DNA of 64,000 nucleotides from an uncultured Clostridia bacterium. Lineage in GTDB: Bacteria; Bacillota; Clostridia; Lachnospirales; CAG-274. A model generated the notes under the pieces. The model searched no databases. It was given only the letters and a program-made list of their open reading frames with translations, and was not told the DNA's origin. Shown piece after piece: positions 4,396 through 61,505 of this stretch; positions within the stretch are counted from its first letter, which is position 1, and every line of letters starts with the position of its first letter. The stretch lies in contig CALWLD010000005.1 of NCBI GenBank assembly GCA_944381435.1, positions 1 to 64,000 on the forward strand, read 5' to 3'. The position numbers were made by a program, and so were the translations under genes.

Positions 4396-4816
4396 GAGGG
4401 TGAAGACAAAGTCTTCACCCTCAAACTATATACAAAATAATTTTTATAAAATCCATAGCATAAATATGAAAAAATGAGCGAAGCTCAAGGGGGTACGGGG
4501 TACTCCCCGTAAAGGGGCGGGGGGCTGGTTTAGATAAAAAACGAACCCCTTGTCTTAAAACTAAAACACTTAAAATTATAAATAAATATAAAAAGATTGT
4601 CGACTTTGTCGACAATCTCTGGTGAAGACTTTATCTTCACCCTTATTATAATTTTAATATTTTATGGTAAAGGCAATATAATAGAAATTATCTATTCCCA
4701 CCCACCGCCCTTATTCTAGGGCTTTGCCCTAGAACCCTTTAATTACTTAAATATTTATGGTAGAAGGTTTTAATATTATTTTGTCTACAGTCTTAATGTG
4801 AAGACAAAGTCTTCAC
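4396..4816 (+). repeat. R2 composite element, full copy 1
   Basis: This fills the gap between spo0A and the dehydrogenase gene. In order: hairpin GAGGGTGAAGAC/GTCTTCACCCTC (4396-4422); module B, with a GC-rich core at about 4485-4530; hairpin AGATTGTCGAC/GTCGACAATCT (4594-4618); hairpin around 4620-4641; module A reversed (about 4645-4795), holding the palindrome CTAGGGCTTTGCCCTAG; and hairpin GTGAAGAC/GTCTTCAC (4798-4816). Module A ends in ATTTTGTCTACAGTCTT, the inverse of the end of other copies. The same modules in opposite order and orientation lie at 35465-35898. No coding frame of substance is present. Confidence 0.75.
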
Positions 4817-4845
4817 CCTTCAAGCTTTTAGCAAAAGCTACAATA

Positions 4846-18371: not shown

Positions 18372-18732
18372 AAAAATAACAAAGTGTAAAGGGGTGGTAA
18401 AATACTAAAAAATTTATTGCAACAAATATTTTTTATAATACTATAAATACAGAAAAGTATATAGTTTAGCTTATTTTCAGGTAGTTTATTTGTTGTATAA
18501 AAATAATATAAAAAGGGGGAAATATATGCTAAAAAATAAAATTTTATCAAGTTTTTTAGCTTGTGTAATATTTTTATCTACTGTGGCTGTACCATCTAAC
18601 TTGGTTTTAGCAGCACAGCTTGCAAATATTCAAGTTGTAGATAGTGAAGAAGGTAGTGAAACACCAAGCCAAGAAACTAGCTAAAACATAAGCGAAGAGA
18701 CATCAAGCGAAGAAAATAGTGAAAGCACAAGC

Positions 18733-18820
18733 GAAGAAATAAGCGAAGAAAGTAGCGAGACATCAAGTGAAGAAATAAGCGAAGAAAGTAGCGAGACATC
18801 AAGTGAAGAAATAAGCGAAA
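18733..18820 (+). repeat. 36-base tandem repeat coding for a Ser/Glu linker
   Basis: Two exact 36-base units (18733-18768 and 18769-18804) plus a partial third, within a wider stretch (18685-18850) of degenerate AGCGAAGAA-type repeats. They encode the SEESSETSSEEI-like linker after the signal peptide of the BspA-like gene. Confidence 0.8.
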
Positions 18821-21800
18821 GCACAAGCGAAGAAAGCATAGAGACATCAGAAAATATATTAAATGAGGATAAGATAGAAAATGATGATATGTCTCAATAT
18901 GCAAATACCAGTAACTTAATAATTGAAAATGGTATAATAAAAGGTTATAACTTAAGTTCTTCATCAATAGGTGAGTTGCATATACCAAGGTCTGTAGAAA
19001 TAGATGGTGTAGAGCAAGATATATTAGGTATAGATAATAGGGCTCTTGCAGGAATGGGTATAACAAAATTAACTTTTGCAGAAGATAGTGCTATAGAATA
19101 TATAGGAAGCTATGCTTTTGCAGAAAATGACATTACGGAGCTTATTTTACCAAATAGTATTGAGAGTATATATGATAGTGCATTTAGATCTTGTGAACTC
19201 TTAACAACTGTAGAATTAAAAGGAGCAACAATTATAGGGTTTTCTGCATTTAGAAACTGTACTCAATTAACTAATATACAGTTACCAGATAGTTTAACAA
19301 GTATAGAAGATTATGCATTTAATGGTTGTACTCAATTAACTAACATACAGTTGCCAAATAGTTTAACAAGTATAGGGTCTTATGCATTTAATGGTTGTAC
19401 TCAATTAACCAATATACAGTTACCAAATAGTTTAACAAGTATAGGGGTTTCTGCATTTGAAAATTGTAGAAAATTAGAGAGTATAGTGCTTCCAAGTAGT
19501 GTAACAAAAATAGGAAATGCTGCATTTAAAAATTGTACTCAATTAGGTAATGTAGAGATACTAAGCAATGTAACAAGCATAGGAAATGAGACATTTTATG
19601 GTTGTACTCAATTAACTAACATACAGTTACCAAATGGTTTAACAAGTATAGAATATGCTGCATTTAATGGTTGTACTCAATTAACTAGCATACAATTACC
19701 AAATAGCTTAACAAATATAGCATGGTCTGCATTTAATGGAGCTGGGTTAGAAAGTATAAAAATACCAAGTAACGTAAAATCTATAGGTTCTTATGCATTT
19801 AGTGAATGTGAAAATTTAACAAGCGTAGAGATACCAGAGGGTATAACAACTATAGAAGCGGGTTTATTTAGATTTTGTGAAAGTCTAACCAGTATAAAAA
19901 TACCAAATAGTGTAACAACTATAAAAGAAGAAGCATTTAGGTCTTGTACAGGATTAACAAGTATAAATATATCAAGCAATGTAACAAGTATAGAAAAAAA
20001 TGTATTTCAAGATAGTAGAAGTTTAACAAGTATATATATAGATCAATATATAAATGATACCAAAATTACTGAGTTTAATTGGGGTGCAAGCCAAAATACT
20101 ACTATATACTGGAAAGATACTGTTGATGATGGTGAATTTATTACAGATGGCGGATATAATTTACAAAGGTACAAAGGTACAAAAGCAAATGTTGTTATAC
20201 CAGATGGCATAACAAAGATAGGAGAATTTGCATTTAAAGGATGTAAAACTATAACCAGTGTAGAAATACCAAATGGTGTAACAGATATAGGTATTGGAGC
20301 ATTTAGTGAGTGTTATTATCTAGTAAGCATAGAAATGCCAAATAGTGTAACACATATAGGGAATGAAGCATTTAAAAGCTGCTCTAGTTTAAAAAATATA
20401 AATTTATCAAACAGTTTAACAGCTATAAGTCTAAGTACATTTGAAGGGTGTAGAGCGTTAACCAGTATAGAAATACCAAGCAGTGTAACAACTATAGAGA
20501 ATAAAGCATTTATGAACTGTATTGCGTTAGCAAATGTGGAAATGACAGATGGTTTAGTAACCATAAAATCAAATGCATTTTATAGTTGCATAAGCTTAAC
20601 CAGTATAGAAATACCAAGCACTGTAATAGATATAGGAGATAATATATTTTGGGGTTGTACAAATTTAACAAGTGTAGAAATTAAAGGAAAAGCAGATATT
20701 AAAATTCATTCTAGTGCATTTAATAAAAATTCTATTGTATATATGCAAGAATATACAATAGAAGAATTAAAGGCTAAGATTGGTTATCCTTGGAATGCTA
20801 AAGCCGTAGTAAGCAAAGGTACTTATGTATCTGAAGATAATGAGTTCTTAGTAGATATAAATGGTGAAATACTTAGTTATCTAGGTAGTAAAAGTAATAT
20901 TATAATACCAAATAAAATAAACACAATAGATGGCAATGAGATAGAAATAAAAGCTATAGGTATAAAGGTATTTGATGGTTATATTAGCTTAGAAAGCATA
21001 GAGATACCAGAAGGCATAACAAGCATAGGAGAATTTGCATTTAGAAACTGCTCTAATTTAAAAAGTATAAAGATACCAGAAGGTGTAACAAGCATATGAC
21101 AATATGCATTCGTATATTGTTATAATCTAGAAAGTGCAGAAATACCAAGTACTTTAGAAAGTATACCAAATCATACGTTTTCATATTGTAAGAAATTAAA
21201 AACTGTAGAAATATCAAAAGGTATAAAAAGCATAGGACAGCAGGCATTTGAAGGCTGTAATTTAGAAACTATTGAAATACCAAATAGTGTAACAGAGATA
21301 GGTAACTTTGCATTTTCAAATTGTACAGGTTTAAAAAGTGTGAAATTATCTGAAAATATAACAGTTATAAGCACTGCTTTATTTAGATGGTGTAGTAGCC
21401 TAGAAACTATAGAAATACCAGAGGGTGTAAAAACTATAAATAGTGAAGCATTTAAAGGTTGTACAAATTTAAGAATTGTAGAATTACCAAGCACTTTAAC
21501 CCAAATAGACTATGATGCATTTCAAAATACCTCAAATATAGAAGAGGTATATGTAAAAAAAGAGAAAGGTACAATTGATTTTACTAATACAGGAATAAAA
21601 GAAAAAGATGTACTTTACCTAGGACGATTTGTAGAAATAAATTATGAGGTATCTAGAAAAGATGGTAATAATTTTATAATATATGTTTCTTATAATGGAC
21701 ATAAGGAGATATTAACTAAAATAGAGGCTACAGGAAGACAAGACTATATACCAAATAATACAATTTTTTATGATGAAAACTATGAATATAACATAAAAGA

Positions 21801-22404
21801 TTTAAGAACACTTCAAGATAACTCATATGAATTCTATGCTAGTGGTGAATTTAAAAATAACCCACAGCATTTAAGAAGATTTGGAGTTAGCACGAATATA
21901 ACAGGTTTTGTAAATTATATTGATGAAAATGGAAATCATTTAAACATAAGAGCAGACCTAAAACACTATGAAAAAGGTGAAAAAATAAATTTAACTAAAG
22001 AAATACCAAATGGAACTGGGACATTTGTAGGTTGGGCAACATATCCAAATGCATCAATAGATGATGTTGTAACAGATGTATATATGAATGATACAAACAT
22101 TAATTTATATCCTGTATATCAACCAGTAGTTTCTGCAACAATCAATTTAGATTATAACTATCCACAAGGACAAAGCAAAGTTGTAACAGAAAACACATAT
22201 ATAGGAGCAAAATATAAATTACCAACAGTAGCAGAAGATAACAATCTAACTATTGAAGGATATACATTTAAAGGTTGGAGCTTATAAAAAGGTAGCACAA
22301 GCTATATGGATACAATAAATATAGATAAAGATGGTATAACTGTATATGCTAACTGGGAAAAGGTACAAAAACCAACAGAGCCACCAGTAAATCCAACAGA
22401 CCCA

Positions 22405-22640
22405 ACAACTACGACAGAAACAACAAGTACAACAACAGAAAGTACAACAGAAACAACAAGCATAACAACAGAAAGTACAACAGAATCAACAAGCACAACA
22501 ACAGAAACAACAAGTACAACAACAGAAAGTACAACAGAAACAACAAGTACAACAACAGAAAGTACAACAGAATCAACAAGCACAGTAACGGAAAGCACAA
22601 CAGAATCAACAAGCACAGCAACGGAAAGTACAACACAAAA
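22405..22640 (+). repeat. ACA-rich tandem repeats coding for a Thr/Ser/Glu stalk
   Basis: Irregular units of about 30-36 bases built from ACAACAGAAAGTACAACAGA and variants encode TTESTTESTST-like residues near the C-terminus of the BspA-like protein. Such stalks usually hold the binding part away from the membrane. The repeats are prone to length change. Confidence 0.8.
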
Positions 22641-23116
22641 TGTAGAAACAACTACAGAACAAACAACAAATGATAACCAAGAAATAATACCTCCTATAGA
22701 TAATGAAGACAACCAAGGTGGAGGAGAAGAAAATAATATAGGAGATACAGAACAGGTTATAAATGAAGAAACACCAAATAATGTATATACATTTGGTAAT
22801 CTAGAAGTTGTAACTCCAGAGCACGAAGAGCTAGCAAGAAGAGCTATATCTAATATTACATTAGAAGAGCAAGCCATAAATCAAACTGTAGATAACATAG
22901 TGGAAAATATGGCAAACAATGGTACTAACATACAAGAAAGAAGACTTACAGAAAAACCAGCCTTTGGTTTTGGCGTAGAAGGTAATATTAGTTTATTAAT
23001 AACGTTGCTAATATTATTAATAATTATAATAGTTGCTTATGTTGTTAAAAAACAAATAATTGATAAAGAAAAACAAAAAGATGAAGATGAAGATGAAAAA
23101 AATACATTAACTGTAT

Positions 23117-23156
23117 AAAAAATAAGCCTTGTAGATATCTACAAGGCTTATTTTTT
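23117..23156. terminator. Bidirectional terminator
   Basis: A perfect palindrome centred at 23136/23137 with A and T runs at its ends; it overlaps the stop codon of the BspA-like gene and serves the convergent gene at 23165. Confidence 0.85.
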
Positions 23157-23164
23157 ATAAGTAT

Positions 23165-23500
23165 CTAAATAGAGTTTATAATGTTATCAATAATACAGTC
23201 ATTAAATTCTTCGTATGTTAAGACATAATATTTATTATTATCTATATTTTTTAAGTCAATTTTATCTTTTATATAAGGTGATATTAAAACTTTATCGTAT
23301 CCTTCAGCTATAAGCTCTTTTATATCCTTATAACTTTCATCAGTTTCTGCCATATAGTCAATGTTATTATCTTTAAAATATTTGTTTAATTTATCTTGTA
23401 ATTTTTCACGTAAAGATTTTTTTAAGAAAATACCGTTATATCCAAAGGGTGCTGGCCTAGCTCCAACTATAGCTTTTGAGATAATAATTATTTTTTTCAT
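23165..23500 (-). CDS. Small protein of unknown function
   Basis: I do not recognise this 111-residue protein. It has a good ribosome site (GGAGGG, 6 bases before ATG 23500), so it is probably real. The pattern is alternating strands and helices: KKIIIISKAIVG, then a basic helix SLREKLQDKLNKYFKDNNI, then IKELIAEGYDKVLISPYIKDKIDL and YYVLTYEEF. This resembles a small Rossmann-like or PTS IIB-like fold, but the phospho-accepting cysteine of IIB proteins is missing from the first loop. It ends in the bidirectional terminator shared with the BspA-like gene. No operon partner. Confidence 0.6.
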   Translation of the reverse strand: MKKIIIISKAIVGARPAPFGYNGIFLKKSLREKLQDKLNKYFKDNNIDYMAETDESYKDIKELIAEGYDKVLISPYIKDKIDLKNIDNNKYYVLTYEEFNDCIIDNIINSI

Positions 23501-23804
23501 ATTTTACCCTCCATATATTAATTAAAAATAATTTTAATACATTTTTAAAAAGTTTTATATCTTTACCTTATAATAATGTAAATTTTATAATTTATATTAT
23601 AGCATATATTTTTTGTAAATCAATACAAAAGATAAATATATAGTAAATATATATAGTATTTTTATAACTGTAATCAATTTTTTGAATACTTTGTATTTAA
23701 AAACATATTCTTCTAAATATTTTATTCATAAAAATTAAAATAAAAAACGTTTATAATTTTTCATCTAAAAATATTAAGTCACATCTTGATTGCATAAATA
23801 AAAT
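23501..23804. other. AT-rich intergenic DNA, nothing seen
   Basis: About 300 bases with no credible frame, RNA gene or repeat. It separates the small gene at 23165 from a terminator and an R1 element at 23805-23967. Confidence 0.5.
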
Positions 23805-23836
23805 AAAAGATTGTTATTTTTAAATAACAATCTTTT
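23805..23836. terminator. Hairpin terminator for the minus-strand secreted-protein gene
   Basis: AAAAGATTGTTATTT (23805-23819) pairs with AAATAACAATCTTTT (23822-23836), a near-perfect palindrome with T runs on both strands. Confidence 0.7.
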
Positions 23837-23840
23837 ATTA

Positions 23841-23967
23841 ATTACAATTAAGGTACCACTTAATTTATTTAATTAAAATTTATATATGGTTTTTTGTATT
23901 AAATTTTAATTAAATAAATTTTAGGAGTGCCTGTTTTTGAATATAAAATATTCAAAAAATTAATTTT
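23841..23967 (+). repeat. R1 element, copy b (longest)
   Basis: This copy shows the structure best. ATTACAATTAAGGTACCACTT and the inverse TTTTAGGAGTGCCT bracket a long imperfect stem, with AATTTATTTAATT facing AATTAAATAAATT. A second hairpin follows, TTTTTGAATA with TATTCAAAAA. The element lies directly beyond the stop of the minus-strand gene at 23974. Confidence 0.75.
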
Positions 23968-23973
23968 ATAAGT

Positions 23974-25551
23974 TTAGTATTGATTTTCATTTGTCATATA
24001 ACCTGTAACGTTGTTTTTATCCATCCACATTTTTTTAGAAGCCATTAAAAACTCTATTGTATCATTTGTTTTGTTAAATAATCTGTTAAGTAAAACTTTA
24101 GTCTGGAACAAATCGTTATAAGTTAAATAAGGATAATCTTCCATCTTGTTTGTGTTTTTTGTATAATATAATGCATAATTTAAGTTACCGTCAGGGAGCA
24201 CCCATTGGTTTCTTGTATCTTCTATACCAAGGAGCATTTTATCTGCTGTTTCTAGGTATCTTTTTTCACCTGTTATGTTATATATTTCGTATAAAAAGTT
24301 CATTTCTGCAAGCTGATGGTTTAAAGAAACGTGAGTTTTTTCGTGAACACCTTTATGATAGCCATAATCTGCAACTAATATGCCACCATTTTGTGTAGGA
24401 TAGCTATCAGTTTCTGTAAATTTTAGGAAAAACTCAGCATATCTAACAGCATAAGCTAAAAATTCTTTATTGTTATAGTTTTGGTAAGCATATAATAAAC
24501 TTGTTGCAAAATCTGTGTTAAATCTTGTGTCGTAAAAGCCTGCACCTATTTTAAAATCTGTAAAAAGCCAGTCAGATTGAGGGCCTGTTTCCCAATATCC
24601 TAGTTGGTTTTGGTTTTTCATACAAGTTTCAGTCATAACATACCCTAAATTTTTAGAAAGAGGGTTTATTGCATATTTTGCAAAAGAAGCTCCTGTATAG
24701 TTAGATGGGTGCTTATATAGCACATCTGTTCCGCCAGGTTTATAGTTAGATGGTGTTTGGAAATAATAACCATCGTAGCTCCAACGTCTGTTTTCGGATA
24801 AATCGTGAGGTAAAAGCTCGTTAAAGCTTTTCATAGTGCTCCAATCTACAAGGCGTTTTGTAGATTCCATATACCAATATTCACCTATTAGGTCTTTATC
24901 TTGAGGGAAAGACATTTGTAAATCAAAATAACCATCTTTTTTAACAACTTTAACCATTTCTTCTTTATCTCTAGCAATAGTTAAAGTGTTGTTTGTAAAT
25001 ATATTTTTGTATACTCCAGGAACGCTAACTATGTAGCTATGTGTGTCTGTGTCTATAAATAATGTAGTATGTTTTAAGTTAGCAAGGTTAGATGTATTTA
25101 CCCATTGTTTTGTAGCTGGGTCTACATATCTAAATGTTATAGTGTTACCTTTTATAGGTATAGAAACATTGTATCTTTCAGGCTTTGTTTCTTTAAAGGA
25201 GAGCCTGTTCATATAGTAAGTATCGTTGTTTTCAAAAACTGTTTTTGTTGTTTTTGTAAATATATTTAAGCTATCTTGTGTTGTTTCTGTTGTTATAGGC
25301 GTAAATTTTGTAGGTGTATATACAGGTACATCTTTTATTATATTGTATATTTTTAAATCTTCACCTGTTAAAGGATTGCCATTTTTATCTTTTGGTATAT
25401 CATTAACTATTTCGTTAGCTTTATCTATAGCCAAGTTGGTATTAGAATTAGCGTTTACATTGTTATTTGAATTAGTATTAGCATAAACATTAGTTGTTAT
25501 AACAGATAAAGCCATAGATAAAGCTATTATCTGCTTTATATTTTTTTTCAA
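23974..25551 (-). CDS. Secreted protein with an alpha/alpha-barrel, possibly C5-epimerase-like
   Basis: The 525-residue protein has a signal peptide (KKNIKQIIALSMALSVITTN, cleavage likely after VYA) and an asparagine-rich spacer. Residues 80-240 look beta-rich. From about 290 to 520 there are repeating helix pairs with GFYDTRFNTDFATSLLYAY, AVRYAEFFLKF, SLNHQLAEMNFLYEIYNIT and RYLETADKMLLGIED, the pattern of an (alpha/alpha) toroid. The SLNHQLAEMNFLYEIYNITG stretch brings to mind the C-terminal domain of glucuronyl C5-epimerases, but I am not sure. It starts with TTG (25551) behind AAGGGGTG. It may act on a surface or extracellular polysaccharide. No neighbours inform the role. Confidence 0.6.
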   Translation of the reverse strand: MKKNIKQIIALSMALSVITTNVYANTNSNNNVNANSNTNLAIDKANEIVNDIPKDKNGNPLTGEDLKIYNIIKDVPVYTPTKFTPITTETTQDSLNIFTKTTKTVFENNDTYYMNRLSFKETKPERYNVSIPIKGNTITFRYVDPATKQWVNTSNLANLKHTTLFIDTDTHSYIVSVPGVYKNIFTNNTLTIARDKEEMVKVVKKDGYFDLQMSFPQDKDLIGEYWYMESTKRLVDWSTMKSFNELLPHDLSENRRWSYDGYYFQTPSNYKPGGTDVLYKHPSNYTGASFAKYAINPLSKNLGYVMTETCMKNQNQLGYWETGPQSDWLFTDFKIGAGFYDTRFNTDFATSLLYAYQNYNNKEFLAYAVRYAEFFLKFTETDSYPTQNGGILVADYGYHKGVHEKTHVSLNHQLAEMNFLYEIYNITGEKRYLETADKMLLGIEDTRNQWVLPDGNLNYALYYTKNTNKMEDYPYLTYNDLFQTKVLLNRLFNKTNDTIEFLMASKKMWMDKNNVTGYMTNENQY

Positions 25552-25591
25552 ATTAAAACACCCCTTAATATTTTTTGTAAGTCTACAAGTT

Positions 25592-25619
25592 ATTATACCA
25601 TTATTTTTGATATTTTCAA
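25592..25619 (-). promoter_or_regulatory. Promoter of the secreted-protein gene
   Basis: On the minus strand, TTGAAA (25619-25614), a 16-base spacer and TATAAT (25597-25592), about 40 bases before the TTG start. Confidence 0.55.
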
Positions 25620-26129
25620 TTTATTTTAATTAATTTTAATTTAATTGTAATATTTTACATTATGGTTTTTTATATAACAAAATATATTTTTCTACATAAA
25701 ATCTTATTTATTGTTATATTTTAATGGATAGGAAAATAACAATATTTTTACTTTAAATATAAATATAAATTTAGGTATATATAAATAAATTTATTTTAAA
25801 ATAAAGATAAAAAACATATAAAATATTGAAATTAATAAATAAAAAATATACAAAATATAAAAAATATATTATAATACATATATAAATTTACAAAAAATAA
25901 ACATAAATCCATTATATATACATACTTTTGTTTAAAAATATAGCTAAAATATATTATTATGTTATAATGATAAAAAATCGTTTTTAAGGAGGCTTTAAAA
26001 TGTAAAATAAATGAGTAAAAGAGAGAACAAAGCATATAAAATGCTTATTACATTATGGGTTGATAAGCTTTGCATAACCTTTGCTATAAATTGTCAAAAT
26101 TTTAAAATAATTATATAGGAGTAATAGAT
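25620..26129. other. AT-rich intergenic region with a start-stop motif
   Basis: Most of this 510-base region shows nothing. Near its right end a strong ribosome site (AAGGAGG, 25986-25992) is followed after 7 bases by ATG and at once by TAA (26000-26005). A 35-residue frame (26011-26118) begins 11 bases further with poor spacing to that site and ends just before the ribosome site of the YitT gene. I do not annotate it as a gene. Confidence 0.5.
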
Positions 26130-26990
26130 ATGGAAAGAAAAAATATTAAGCATATATGTTTTTTAGTAATTTTAAACATATTAGGTACATTTAGCTATGC
26201 AGTTGGCATAAATTGCTTTGCAGCCCCTCATAATATAGCACCTGGTGGAGCTAGCGGTATTGCAATACTTATAAATTATATATTTAAATTTCCTATTGGT
26301 ACATTTGTATTAGTATTTAATTTTCCCCTTTTAATTTGGATACTTATTAAAAAGTATTTTCCAAAATCTTTTGTATTTAAAACTTTAGCTACAACATCTA
26401 TGCTTTCTTTTATAACAGATTACATTGTTGTTTACATACCTGTTTATAAGGGCGATGCACTGCTTGCATCTATGTTTGGTGGGGCGCTTATGGGCATTGG
26501 ACTTGCCCTTGTTCATTTAGGAGCATCTAACACAGGAGGTATATCTCTTCTTGGAGTTATTGTGCAAAAGATAAAGCCTAAATTTCCTGTTGGAGGGCTT
26601 ATAGCAAGCCTTAACATAGCAGTTGTTATTGCATCTGGTTTTGTTTATAAAAATATAGAAAGCCTTTTATATGCTGTTGTTACGGTTTATATATCAGGTA
26701 TGTTTATGGATAAAATGCTTGAGCAAGCATCTAGAAAAAACCTTATGTTCATTATGTCTGAATGTACAGATATTGTAAGAAAAGCTTTGGTAGATGCTCA
26801 TAAGTCTATTACTATTTTAAAAGGCGAAGGTGGATATTCTAGCAAAATGCAAAGGGTTCTAATTTGTGCTACAACAAAAGATGACTGTGTGCAAATAGAA
26901 AAAATGATAAAATCATTAGATGATAAAGCTCTCATAATAATAACAGAAACTAAAAAGGTAGAGGGAAAAGGTTTTAAACATATGATATAA
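26130..26990 (+). CDS. YitT-family membrane protein
   Basis: This 286-residue protein belongs to the YitT family (DUF161 membrane domain plus C-terminal DUF2179). The first 200 residues hold five to six helices with the family signatures GINCFAAPHNIAPGGASGIAI and LALVHLGASNTGGISLLG. The soluble C-terminal domain (about 205-280) contains ITILKGEGGYSSKMQRVLICATT, the typical DUF2179 stretch with the G-x-G-G-Y-x motif. Family members are common in Firmicutes, often several per genome; no transported substrate is established. ATG 26130 follows AGGAG. It stands alone and ends about 90 bases before a strong terminator. Confidence 0.92.
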   Translation: MERKNIKHICFLVILNILGTFSYAVGINCFAAPHNIAPGGASGIAILINYIFKFPIGTFVLVFNFPLLIWILIKKYFPKSFVFKTLATTSMLSFITDYIVVYIPVYKGDALLASMFGGALMGIGLALVHLGASNTGGISLLGVIVQKIKPKFPVGGLIASLNIAVVIASGFVYKNIESLLYAVVTVYISGMFMDKMLEQASRKNLMFIMSECTDIVRKALVDAHKSITILKGEGGYSSKMQRVLICATTKDDCVQIEKMIKSLDDKALIIITETKKVEGKGFKHMI

Positions 26991-27081
26991 TAAAAGATTA
27001 AATGCTTTAATATGCTACAATAAGCTATTAATATAGCAGATAAGATGTTTTATTTTAAAGGAGATATGGTTTAAACTTTAT

Positions 27082-27110
27082 AAACCCACCCAAAAGGGTG
27101 GGTTTATTAT
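27082..27110 (+). terminator. Terminator after the YitT gene
   Basis: AAACCCACCC (27082-27091) pairs with GGGTGGGTTT (27096-27105) over AAAA, followed by ATTATT. It also faces the convergent gene at 27197. Confidence 0.8.
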
Positions 27111-27111
27111 T

Positions 27112-27190
27112 GTAATTAAGGTACAACTTAGTTACAATAAATTTTAGGAGTACCTGTTTTTGACAACAAAGTGTTCAAAAAATTGATTTA
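27112..27190 (+). repeat. R1 element, copy c (short form)
   Basis: TAATTAAGGTACAACTTA is followed by only a short inner part and then TTTTAGGAGTACCTG, so the first hairpin is compact. The second hairpin reads TTTTTGACA with TGTTCAAAA. It lies between the YitT terminator and the stop of the minus-strand gene at 27197. Confidence 0.7.
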
Positions 27191-27196
27191 TTTCAA

Positions 27197-27865
27197 TTAA
27201 GCTCCTATTTTTACATTGGAAGGGTCTACATAGCTTATGCTTTCATCTTTTAAGTTTATTTTAAATGTAAACTGTTCAAAATATCCTTCATTTGTTTTTT
27301 TATCGTTATAATTTAACAGTACTGCTGTAGAAAAATCATCATTGATGTTATATAGCATATTTAATGAGCTAGCATCTACATTAGCATTAAGGTTGCCTTT
27401 ATCGGCATATATATTGCTTAAAGAGCTAATATCTGCTGTAGAAAAATTTATATTTATTTTATCATTATTAAATGTTTGGTTAAGAGGTGTTATATCTAAT
27501 AAATAATAGTAATTATCTGTAGTTATTGCATAAACATCAAAGGAGACACTGCCCTCTATCTTTTTCTCTTCATCAAAAATATCAGAAGACACTGTATAAG
27601 AAACAAATTTCTTGCTTTTAAGCTCTTTTTCTATTTCTTCGTTAGTTAAATTAAGGCTAGATAAAGCATCGTCAAGGCTTACAAAGCCATCTTTTAATTT
27701 AGAGTTATAAAAGTTTTCTAGGTAATCTTCATTGTTATTATTTACATTTAAAGAGGCAGAAACATTTTTTATATTTTCTTCTTTTTTAAAATAAGAGAAA
27801 AACATAAATATAAAAGCTATAACAACAATGATACAAACAGGAATAATAATTTTAATATTTTTCAT
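27197..27865 (-). CDS. Membrane-anchored protein of unknown function
   Basis: I do not recognise this 222-residue protein. It has one N-terminal membrane helix (about residues 5-24: IKIIIPVCIIVVIAFIFMFF) without a lipobox, a short basic stop FKKEE, and then an extracytoplasmic part rich in asparagine, aspartate and serine with a mixed strand pattern. Residues 60-85 (VSLDDALSSLNLTNEEIEKEL) look like a helical pair. A ribosome site GGAGGG lies before ATG 27865. It diverges from recX and converges on the YitT gene across an R1 element. No partner genes. Confidence 0.6.
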   Translation of the reverse strand: MKNIKIIIPVCIIVVIAFIFMFFSYFKKEENIKNVSASLNVNNNNEDYLENFYNSKLKDGFVSLDDALSSLNLTNEEIEKELKSKKFVSYTVSSDIFDEEKKIEGSVSFDVYAITTDNYYYLLDITPLNQTFNNDKININFSTADISSLSNIYADKGNLNANVDASSLNMLYNINDDFSTAVLLNYNDKKTNEGYFEQFTFKINLKDESISYVDPSNVKIGA

Positions 27866-27970
27866 ATAAGACCCTCCTTATAATATAATAATATTTATTA
27901 TATCATATATAAAAAAATAAACTATTTATTTTTTTACTAAATTTATGTTATAATAATAAAGGTGATTTAT

Positions 27971-28591
27971 TTGATAATAACAAAAATAGAAAAACAAAAA
28001 AATAATAATAAACGATATTCTATATTTATAGATAACGAGTTTGCCTTTGGCATAGATGAAATAGATTTGTTATATTATAAGCTTAAAGAAAACGAACCTT
28101 TAGATGAAGAAAGGTACAATTATATAGCTAATAAACTTTTGTTAAAACGAGCTAAAGATAAAGCTTTAAAATATTTAGGTTATAAAATGCGTTCTAAAAA
28201 GCAGGTTATAAAAAAGCTACAGGAATATGAATTTCCTCCTGAAGTTATAGCTAAAGTAATAAAAGTTTTAGAAAGATATAACTATATAAATGATGATGAA
28301 TTTGCAAAGGCTTTTATAAAAGATAAAATAAATTTAAAAAAACACGGTGTTTTTAAAATAAAATATGATTTAAAAATGCTAGGCATAGAAGAAGAAATTT
28401 TTTCAAAATATCTATATAATGAAAAATTTGTAAAAGAAGAAGAAAAAGCAAAAGAGCTATTAGATAAAAAGCTAAACGGTAGATGCTTGCAAGATTTAGA
28501 ATATAAAGAAAAGCAAAAGATATATGCTTATCTAGCAAGGCGAGGCTTTTCTTATGATAGCATAAACAAAGCATTTAACCATTACAATTAA
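27971..28591 (+). CDS. recX: Regulatory protein RecX
   Basis: This 206-residue protein fits RecX, which binds RecA filaments and restrains recombination. RecX is made of repeated three-helix units: KDKALKYLGYKMRSKKQVIKKL, FPPEVIAKVIKVLERYNYINDDEFAKAF and KINLKKHGVFKIKYDLKMLGI-type blocks are all visible (the last in two parts), as are the DDEFA and RRGF motifs near the ends of their repeats. The likely start is TTG 27971, five bases after AAAGGTGA; a GTG at 27962 is in frame but overlaps that site. The last three codons and the TAA stop (CATTACAATTAA) are part of an R1 element, so the element may have supplied the present C-terminus. Confidence 0.85.
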   Translation: MIITKIEKQKNNNKRYSIFIDNEFAFGIDEIDLLYYKLKENEPLDEERYNYIANKLLLKRAKDKALKYLGYKMRSKKQVIKKLQEYEFPPEVIAKVIKVLERYNYINDDEFAKAFIKDKINLKKHGVFKIKYDLKMLGIEEEIFSKYLYNEKFVKEEEKAKELLDKKLNGRCLQDLEYKEKQKIYAYLARRGFSYDSINKAFNHYN

Positions 28592-28705
28592 GATATGACT
28601 TAATATTTTAGAGAAAAAATTATAAACGTGTGTTTGTTTTAATTTTTAAGAATAAAATATTTAGGAATATCTGGTTTTGAATAAAAAGTATTCAAAAAAT
28701 TGATT
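28582..28705 (+). repeat. R1 element, copy d
   Basis: The element begins ATTACAATTAAGATATGACTT, in which the TAA is the recX stop, and ends TTTTGAATA, loop, TATTCAAAAAATTGATTAT just before the ribosome site of the TPR gene. The first hairpin is weaker here, with AAGATAT facing ATATCT. Confidence 0.7.
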
Positions 28706-28726
28706 ATATGTTGGAGGAATATGAAT

Positions 28727-30259
28727 ATGAATAAAAACAAAAGAGCTTCTTTGAGAAAAGAGTTTTTAGAATCTTATAAGGCTAAAGATTATTTAGCTTC
28801 TATAGATAATTTAGAAAATATATTAAAGCTATATAGTGAAGAAGAAAAAGAAACTATAGAATATTGCACAGATGTATATAACTTAGCATATATACAGCAA
28901 ATGTTAGGAAAATTTAGCCTATCTATAAATTACTATAAAAAGTTATTGAAAATTTTAGATAAAAAAGAATATGATGTTAATAATAAAGAAGACATAGAAA
29001 GAATAGATTTTATAGTTAGCATAGAAAATTGCCTTGGAGTTTGCTATGGTAAAAGCTCTATAAAGCAGACTTTTTCCATAAATTGTTTTGAAAGAGCCTT
29101 AAATTTAACAAAAAAATATTTAATGCATAAAGATTTAAAAGATAAAGATTTATATACAGAACGTTTCCTAAGCACGCTACATAACATAGGTTCATCTTAT
29201 TACGATATAGGGCAATATGAAGATGCTATATATTATTTTTTAGAAGAACTTTCTAACAGGAGCAACCAGGGCAACATAGAACGTGTAGATAACTTAAATT
29301 ATCTAGGATATTGCTATGAAAAGCTAAAAAAATATGACGATGCTATAGGATATTTTAAACAAGCTTTAGATATTATAAAAGTGTTATTTAGCTTAACATC
29401 TGAAGAATATATAGCCAATGTTTATTACATAGCTTCTGTATATTCTAAAATGGGAGATTATGATAAAGCTATAAAAAATTACGAGATAGCTTGTAACCTT
29501 TTAGAACAAAAGGTAGATAAAAAGCACCCTTATGTTGCTGAAGCTTTTTCTAAACTATCTGATAACTATTTAAAAGCAGATAGAGCACAAGATGCACTTG
29601 ATATACAGCTAAAATCTTTAAACATAGTTAAAGAAACTGTAGGAGAAAAGCATATGTTTTATGCATCGGCGTTAAAAAGAACAGGGGATATATATTATAT
29701 ATTAGGAAACTATGAAAAAGCCTTGTTTTATTACGAAACAGAAAACAGCATAAAAGAAGAAATCATAGGCATATATAACGAAGAATTTGTAAATTCTTTA
29801 TTAAACCTTATAAATGTTTATGTAAAGACTAATAAAAAAGACAAAGAGGAAGAAGCTAAAAACAAGCTTTTAAAAATGGTTGATTTTGATTTACCTAAAA
29901 AATCTTATGAAAAAGCACTTCTTGTTTTATGTAAAATATACATAACTAACGATTTAGCAAAAGAGCTTTACGATATATACGAAAACTATAAATACGTAAA
30001 CGATACAGATAGCTTTGACGATATGATAAAAAAGGCAAAAGATATAGAAGAAGATATAATAGAAAAAAACAAAACATTAGATGATATTTATGAAGAGGAA
30101 GAAGAAATTGACGAATTAGAAGATTTTAGAGAAGATATTTTTGATGGCATAAAAAATTTATTTGACGGCATAAAAGAAGAAATTGACAAAATTGAAAGAA
30201 AACAGAAAAAAGAAGAAAATAAACAAGATAACGACGAAGAAAAAGAAGATAATATCTAA
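28727..30259 (+). CDS. Tetratricopeptide-repeat protein
   Basis: This 510-residue cytoplasmic protein is built mostly of TPR units. Clear ones include YNLAYIQQMLGKFSLSINYYKKLL, LHNIGSSYYDIGQYEDAIYYF, LNYLGYCYEKLKKYDDAIGYF, YYIASVYSKMGDYDKAIKNYE, FSKLSDNYLKADRAQDAL and KRTGDIYYILGNYEKALFYYE (some longer than given). The last 80 residues are extremely acidic and then mixed charge (about 430-510), likely a flexible tail. No signal peptide or enzymatic domain is present. TPR proteins act as scaffolds or as peptide receptors; no partner is identifiable. I start at ATG 28727, 9 bases after GGAGG; an ATG at 28721 is too close. The gene follows recX across an R1 element. Confidence 0.8.
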   Translation: MNKNKRASLRKEFLESYKAKDYLASIDNLENILKLYSEEEKETIEYCTDVYNLAYIQQMLGKFSLSINYYKKLLKILDKKEYDVNNKEDIERIDFIVSIENCLGVCYGKSSIKQTFSINCFERALNLTKKYLMHKDLKDKDLYTERFLSTLHNIGSSYYDIGQYEDAIYYFLEELSNRSNQGNIERVDNLNYLGYCYEKLKKYDDAIGYFKQALDIIKVLFSLTSEEYIANVYYIASVYSKMGDYDKAIKNYEIACNLLEQKVDKKHPYVAEAFSKLSDNYLKADRAQDALDIQLKSLNIVKETVGEKHMFYASALKRTGDIYYILGNYEKALFYYETENSIKEEIIGIYNEEFVNSLLNLINVYVKTNKKDKEEEAKNKLLKMVDFDLPKKSYEKALLVLCKIYITNDLAKELYDIYENYKYVNDTDSFDDMIKKAKDIEEDIIEKNKTLDDIYEEEEEIDELEDFREDIFDGIKNLFDGIKEEIDKIERKQKKEENKQDNDEEKEDNI

Positions 30260-35464: not shown

Positions 35465-35898
35465 AAGGGTAAAGATAAAGTCTTTACCCTTGTTTTAGAG
35501 TGCAGACAAAATAATATTAAAGCCTTATACCATAAATATTTAAGTAATTAAAGGGTTATAGGGCAAAGCCCTAGAAGAAGGGTGGTTGGCGGGAACAGAT
35601 AATTTTTATCATTTTGCCTTTACTCTAAAATATTAAAATTACAAAAATGACGAAAACTTTGTATACAACTTGAAATAAGGGTAAAGGAGATTGTCGACAA
35701 AGTGGACAATCTTTTTGCAATTTTTAAATTTTTTATTTTAAGGTAAGGTTATCAATACTCTAAACCCACCCACCACCCTATGCGGGGACACCCCGTACCC
35801 CGCCCATCTGCGTTCCGCTTTTTGATGTTTATGATATTAATTTTTATAAAAATTATTTTGTCTACAGTCTGAAGGGTAAAGATAAAATCTTTACCCTT
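35465..35898 (-). repeat. R2 composite element, full copy 2, inverted relative to copy 1
   Basis: In order: hairpin AAGGGTAAAGAT/GTCTTTACCCTT (35465-35491); module A (about 35510-35672) with the palindromic AGGGCAAAGCCCT; hairpin AGATTGTCGAC/GTGGACAATCT (35688-35712) followed by TTTTT; module B reversed (about 35735-35862) with GCGGGGACACCCCGTACCCC; and hairpin AAGGGTAAAGAT/ATCTTTACCCTT (35872-35898). The order is the mirror of copy 1 at 4396-4816. The outer hairpins read GTAAAGA where copy 1 reads GTGAAGA. The whole gap between trxB and the FlgN-like gene is this element. Confidence 0.75.
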
Positions 35899-36496: not shown

Positions 36497-36524
36497 AAAA
36501 GAAATATGTAAATGCTTTGATAAG

Positions 36525-36749
36525 GACAGTAGGTATATATTCTTAGTTTAGCGAGCTAGGGACGGTGGAAGCCTAGCCAAAAGGTTTATACTGAAAATCA
36601 CCTTTTAGCAGTAAACCGAAAGTAAGTTTATAAAAATTATTAGTAGGCTTTAACGTACCCCTACGTTACAGGGTTTGAGAGGGTAGCTTTAGCTATCAAA
36701 TCAGGTGGTACCGCGTTTATTACGTCCTGTTATTTTGCAGGGCTTTTTT
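36525..36749 (+). promoter_or_regulatory. T-box leader of ileS (isoleucine)
   Basis: Stem I carries AGTAGGTATA and GACGGTGGAAGCC, and ATC at 36597-36599, an isoleucine codon in the position expected of the specifier. The T-box AGGTGGTACCGCG is at 36703-36715. The terminator TCCTG/CAGGG followed by CTTTTTT is at 36725-36749. This accounts for the gap before ileS. Confidence 0.9.
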
Positions 36750-43608: not shown

Positions 43609-43867
43609 GCTATAGGCAAAATACTATTCAAAGTAACTTTTTTCCTACAACCTCTAATATTATATAATATTTCAGACTGTAGATAAAATAATATTAAAGT
43701 CTTTTACCATAAATATTTAAGTAATTAAATGGTTCTAGGGCAAAGCCCTAGAAGAAGGGTGGTGGGCGGGAATAGATAATTTCTATCATCTTGCCTTTAT
43801 TCTAAAATATTAAAATTACAAAAATGGCAAAAACTTTGTCTACAACCTCTAATATTATATAATATTT
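43609..43867 (+). repeat. R2 module A copy between 28-base direct repeats
   Basis: A module A copy (about 43673-43839) with CTAGGGCAAAGCCCTAG is bracketed by two perfect 28-base direct repeats, CTACAACCTC and onward, at 43645-43672 and 43840-43867. Just left of it, 43609-43644 looks like the two ends of another copy joined with the interior lost. This fills most of the 385-base gap between the chromate genes and the glycosyltransferase gene. Confidence 0.7.
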
Positions 43868-61377: not shown

Positions 61378-61505
61378 AAACTGTAGACAAAATAAATATT
61401 TATCAAAAATTTAAGCCATAGCCCACGGGGTGCGGGGTGTCCTCGCGTAGGGCGGTGGGTGGGTTTAGATAATTACAAAAAAGGTGTCAACTTTGTCAAC
61501 AATCT
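61378..61505 (+). repeat. R2 module B copy between the MATE paralogues
   Basis: It starts AAACTGTAGACAAAATAAAT, has the GC-rich core CCACGGGGTGCGGGGTGTCC, and ends with GGTGTCAACTTTGTCAACAA, a decayed form of the GTCGACTTTGTCGAC hairpin of the full copies. Confidence 0.65.

Follow-up and report, generated by a model that had tools for sequence, protein, structure and literature searches.

Architecture of the interrupted gene

The window (the whole 64,000-nucleotide stretch that was analysed) carries on its forward strand a BspA-like gene at 18526-23118, a single frame of 1531 codons that is interrupted by three internal stops, requires no frameshift at any point, and closes with a terminal TAA at 23116. 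The original prediction, three stops in one unshifted frame, is thus borne out. The start codon is an ATG preceded by an SD-like AAAGG. From N- to C-terminus the frame encodes a predicted signal peptide followed by a Ser/Glu linker, then BspA-type LRR_5 repeats and a Listeria-Bacteroides repeat, and finally a Thr-rich linker and a membrane tail.

The first open piece (18526-18681, 52 codons up to the first stop) comprises the signal peptide and the start of the Ser/Glu linker, and its N-terminus matches those of intact proteins of the genus. Beyond the first stop, a TAA at 18682-18684, 804 open codons (18685-21096) contain Ser/Glu-rich linker and the main block of BspA-type LRR_5 repeats (PF13306, E-value 4.5e-164). 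The second stop, a TGA at 21097-21099, lies within an LRR unit, and the piece after it holds the remaining LRR units, a conserved C-terminal region and the start of the Listeria-Bacteroides repeat (21100-22284; PF13306, 3.1e-45; Flg_new, PF09479, 2.4e-6). This repeat is cut by the third stop, a TAA at 22285-22287, and its remainder, a Thr/Ser-rich linker, the conserved tail, a membrane helix and a charged end fill the last piece (22288-23115). The two Pfam LRR_5 matches, one on each side of the second stop, reach 537.7 and 153.6 bits (cut-off 27.7); the gene has 27 LRR units, and there are sequence matches to solved LRR surface proteins (PDB 4fs7, 4gt6 and others). Export and anchoring of the product are predicted from the hydrophobic N-terminus and the C-terminal membrane helix, both read by eye.

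A perfect 23-bp inverted repeat at the gene end (23114-23159) is probably a terminator shared with the converging frame at 23165-23500, although it is absent from the list returned by the terminator scan. Elsewhere in the window, an ordinary T-box leader (36508-36732) precedes a class I tRNA synthetase gene.

The open pieces might each be made separately from internal starts. An ATG at 22306 with an upstream SD-like AAAGG could start a tail piece, and some product from this last piece is possible; in the long LRR piece, however, only one start has as much as a four-base SD-like match, and it lies far inside the piece (20512), and no signal peptide was recognised by eye on any piece after the first stop. 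We consider production in pieces very improbable.

Relatives and genomic setting

Intact relatives with stop-free frames of up to 2354 codons are present in three other genomes of the genus (G005, G001 and G004) and on contig C1 of the window's own genome (G000), and relative to these the reading frame is interrupted. The C-terminal region is 29-49% identical to those of intact genus members, with 45-49% for 21100-22284 against four intact places in G005, and the tail (22774-23115) is 46-72% identical to those of intact genus proteins. The tail occurs in five of the eight genus genomes (G006 has no more than a short, broken match) and in none of 53 others. This conserved end of large surface proteins (also loci L148-L150) consists of an EKPAFGFG-like motif, a membrane helix and a KKQIIDKEK-like end, and may serve as an anchor or sorting signal specific to the lineage.

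The comparison with sister strains that had been proposed was run with a mixed outcome: intact family members exist elsewhere in the genus, but neither a same-species allele nor a gene at the same site was recovered. No such allele was found in 61 related genomes, in viral contigs, or in a genome-contig collection that may lack records of the genome to which the window belongs, and we therefore infer the inactivating changes rather than see them against an intact allele. At the matching site, the BspA-like gene is missing beyond the solute-binding gene in all five sister genomes that span it (G001, G003, G004, G006 and G007), where the solute-binding gene is followed by other conserved genes; the comparison leaves out G005, whose contig ends 2.9 kb on, and G002, which has no matching downstream order. 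The block from 23974 to 30259 differs in order and orientation from its counterparts in G001, G003 and G007, so that the BspA-like gene sits at a rearrangement point.

Sister genome G001 contains a remnant from the same family that is older and shows both stops and a frame change in a span of 190 bases, which indicates that members of the family do decay. Together these relationships suggest a family of accessory, genus-restricted surface proteins that are gained and lost between species. Titles and abstract openings returned by a literature search included nothing about this gene family in these clostridia. Two further LRR-type matches, each with an internal TAA, lie in a genome from a different family within the same order (G039:C42:431645-432725).

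Internal stops across the genome

The window's genome is a draft of 2,156,706 bases in 38 contigs (98.8% complete), of which 488,902 bases (22.7%) were surveyed for stops lying between two open segments of the same frame, each of at least 60 codons. There were 117 such stops: 74 lie in the shadow of a better frame, another 36 have a start and an SD-like site after them, and seven are left over. Two of the seven are the first and second stops of the BspA-like gene. In two more the segment beyond the stop fails to score as coding, in another two an ATG comes immediately after it, and the last separates a phage gene pair (Baseplate_J, 124 bits; Sheath_initiator, 26.1 bits, under its cut-off of 32.9). 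In this pair (L115:10859-12382), sheath-initiator-like and baseplate J genes, the second gene apparently begins with a non-standard codon, downstream of a strong SD-like site.

No gene-interrupting stop besides those of the BspA-like gene was therefore found in the 488,902-base sample, which makes the interrupted frame more than a product of chance, with the qualifications that homology was not checked for each of the 36 start-associated cases (23 contexts were read, all three stops of the gene included), that the third stop of the gene itself falls in this class, so that a similar case could be hidden there, and that the coding-score filter caught only one of the gene's three stops. Among the seven LRR_5 genes of the genome, the gene at 18526-23118 is the only one with an internal stop. 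The same holds for the 40 LRR clusters in the examined loci (two of which, L032 and L089, are most likely one contig); one cluster, L043, has a frame change.

Errors in the assembly had been offered as one source of the stops. Error on an assembly-wide scale was rejected as unlikely, the survey of 22.7% of the genome having revealed no excess, and only the local form of the idea survives: merged repeat copies or strains, or miscalls at low coverage, would have introduced the stops into the consensus of a living, intact gene. The genome is a draft, and family genes in the sister genomes commonly lie at contig ends (C94, C21 and C65 of G001; C20 and C37 of G005), which indicates that the family strains assemblers. 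Low-quality reads, according to the available part of one study (PMC11017572), raise internal stops more than frameshifts, an effect that the stops without a frameshift would match. Against this, no other internal stop was found in the sample, and three nonsense miscalls imply about 62-71 substitution errors in the gene, yet its repeats fit the family profile: measured against a profile from 447 units of other loci its units average 28.7, and 24 intact frames range from 20.5 to 33.7. Sequence alone does not tell a recent pseudogene from an error in the local consensus; we regard the local error as unlikely, though worth keeping in mind.

Read-through or suppression of all three stops, with the gene expressed in full, had also been proposed, and it would suit the intact frame, SD-like site and domains. 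The second stop, a TGA followed by C, is in a leaky stop context. Two of the three stops, however, are TAA, and none of the seven tRNA genes in the sample is a suppressor, most tRNA genes lying outside it. Stop-codon recoding was rejected since release factor 2 is present in the genome and no other gene in the 488,902 of 2,156,706 bases was seen to need a stop read as a residue; the same two facts leave read-through without support, and we hold it to be extremely improbable.

Origin of the stops and state of the gene

Each stop had been attributed to a single G-to-T change, from GAA, GGA and GAA, respectively. This is likely for the first stop, the best guess for the second and no more than a possibility for the third. 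At the first stop, the proposed residue class follows serine at 15 of the 24 other linker positions, and in a low-complexity, soft alignment of relatives with this protein end the column holds that class in four of seven, a gap in two and a different residue in one. The residue proposed for the second stop is the commonest in its repeat column (11 of 24 other units), and the soft alignment of the family is mixed there. At the third stop the nearest relatives offer no aligned residue and only two of five equally spaced repeats fit, so that G-to-T at all three sites is a guess. At in-genome rates, which use substitution counts from repeat copies and treat change as reversible, the probability that all three stops arose by G-to-T is 0.016-0.034, or 0.06-0.11 if only two are counted; because codons of this class are in any case the most frequent nonsense targets of the gene, the pattern is weak evidence of bias.

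A bias caused by oxidised guanine had nevertheless been considered, and in the suggested check of mutM and mutY neither was above cut-off in any of the 13 genomes of the clostridial family (G000-G012). The fpg/MutM model has no match in the 13, and the MutY model gives only weak matches of at most 101.5 bits (cut-off 286.5), which are probably endonuclease III. All 13 genomes encode an OGG1-type glycosylase (OGG_N). According to the accessible portion of a review (PMC3397491), OGG1 is confined to a few bacteria, Firmicutes for the most part, and the clostridial enzyme cuts 8-oxoG whichever base lies opposite. A clostridial family that lacks MutM and MutY and bears OGG1 is a noteworthy side result for the study of mutation spectra.

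Dispersed repeats of about 90-200 bases, 85-96% alike, occur in the window at 1-87, 4620-4820, 23668-23803, 23814-23970, 35493-35677, 35687-35802, 43670-43854 and 61380-61481, and their further copies lie at other places in the window or on different contigs; they have no Rfam match at gathering score. Non-coding repeat copies of the genome with at least 88% identity have a transition/transversion ratio (ts/tv) of 1.28, with 51 of 242 differences of the G/T plus A/C kind, and coding copies with at least 80% identity have a ratio of 1.31 (49 of 361); directions of change are not resolved in this spectrum, and old and recent changes are mixed. Coding pairs of at least 92% identity form a thin class, a single pair with four differences and a ratio of 0.33. 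By comparison, mutY-deletion mutation-accumulation lines of Streptococcus pneumoniae have a ratio of about 0.1, and 16 indels against 831 substitutions, in the part of that report available (PMC11136922).

A mutator could in principle account for the gene: unrepaired 8-oxoguanine in cells without MutM and MutY would cause G:C-to-T:A changes, and these would make stops from common codons while indels stayed rare. The repair background of all 13 genomes is suggestive, the few indels of the mutY deletion would cover both features of the gene (to judge from the same part of PMC11136922), and the probability of three G-to-T changes in three rises from about 0.02 to 0.35-0.53 under mutY-deletion-like spectra whose weights are our own assumptions. 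The strong G:C-to-T:A excess of the MutY-deficient type is, however, not seen in the repeat copies of the genome, where both ts/tv values are ordinary, and there is uncertainty about the ancestral codons, most of all about the third. Furthermore, the repair set is alike across the clostridial family, so a mutator cannot single out the BspA-like gene. With the spectrum test negative, we give the mutator little credence. It is likewise a long shot that, in a family without MutM and MutY and with a base-unselective OGG1, oxidised guanine would yield G-to-T changes in bursts or in certain genes, so that nonsense would be the usual cause of gene death and frameshift a rare one, with the BspA-like gene as a visible example.

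That indels should already be visible in a decaying 4.6-kb gene proved too strong a premise. Non-coding dispersed repeats of the genome with at least 88% identity have 22 gap openings against 242 substitutions (0.091), and in wild-type S. pneumoniae lines indels arise at 8.43% of the substitution rate, a value from the available section of the same study (PMC11136922). At the in-genome ratio of 0.09, a gene would collect three nonsense changes ahead of its first frameshift with a probability of 0.04-0.065; treating the first stop as given raises this to 0.11-0.16. Over this whole range, about 0.04-0.16, the absence of a frameshift is a mild surprise, a little unusual but not striking.

Very recent loss, another of the options raised, is the best fit to a frame that is intact and domains that are kept on both sides of the stops, and we think it probable that a large BspA-like surface protein, secreted and membrane-anchored, was once encoded here and that the locus is now its young pseudogene; the strict end of the frameshift calculation (0.04) is mildly uncomfortable for this reading. 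The best LRR_5 match of the whole genome lies in this interrupted gene, so its decay is slight. Its family, restricted to the genus, would undergo gain and loss between species, and the gene itself sits at a break in conserved gene order. The first nonsense change would have ended production, probably at little cost, since such surface proteins are dispensable, and two further nonsense changes would then have arisen before any frameshift. Translation would end after the signal peptide and a short linker, so that no surface protein would be made. We infer the order of these events, the loss of the product and the neutrality of the changes from the sequence. The locus looks less like a new mechanism than like an ordinary accessory gene that was lost recently: it would be a clean case of loss caught at an early stage in a surface-protein gene, and it illustrates the extent to which a pattern of nonsense changes alone is readable before special mechanisms are invoked.

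Bacterial pseudogenes with internal stops, as described in the accessible part of PMC11017572, resemble this gene in having such stops in an otherwise intact frame; many of those cases are assembly errors accompanied by an assembly-wide excess, whereas no excess was seen in the sample of this genome. The intact genus members (G005, G001, G004 and contig C1 of G000) share the architecture and tail of the window copy, but have no stops, and none lies at the same genomic place. With BspA-like LRR_5 proteins in general (PF13306; PDB 4fs7, 4gt6) the likeness lies in LRR_5 repeats that score far above cut-off, and the window copy differs from them in its three stops and in an anchor tail that is restricted to the genus.
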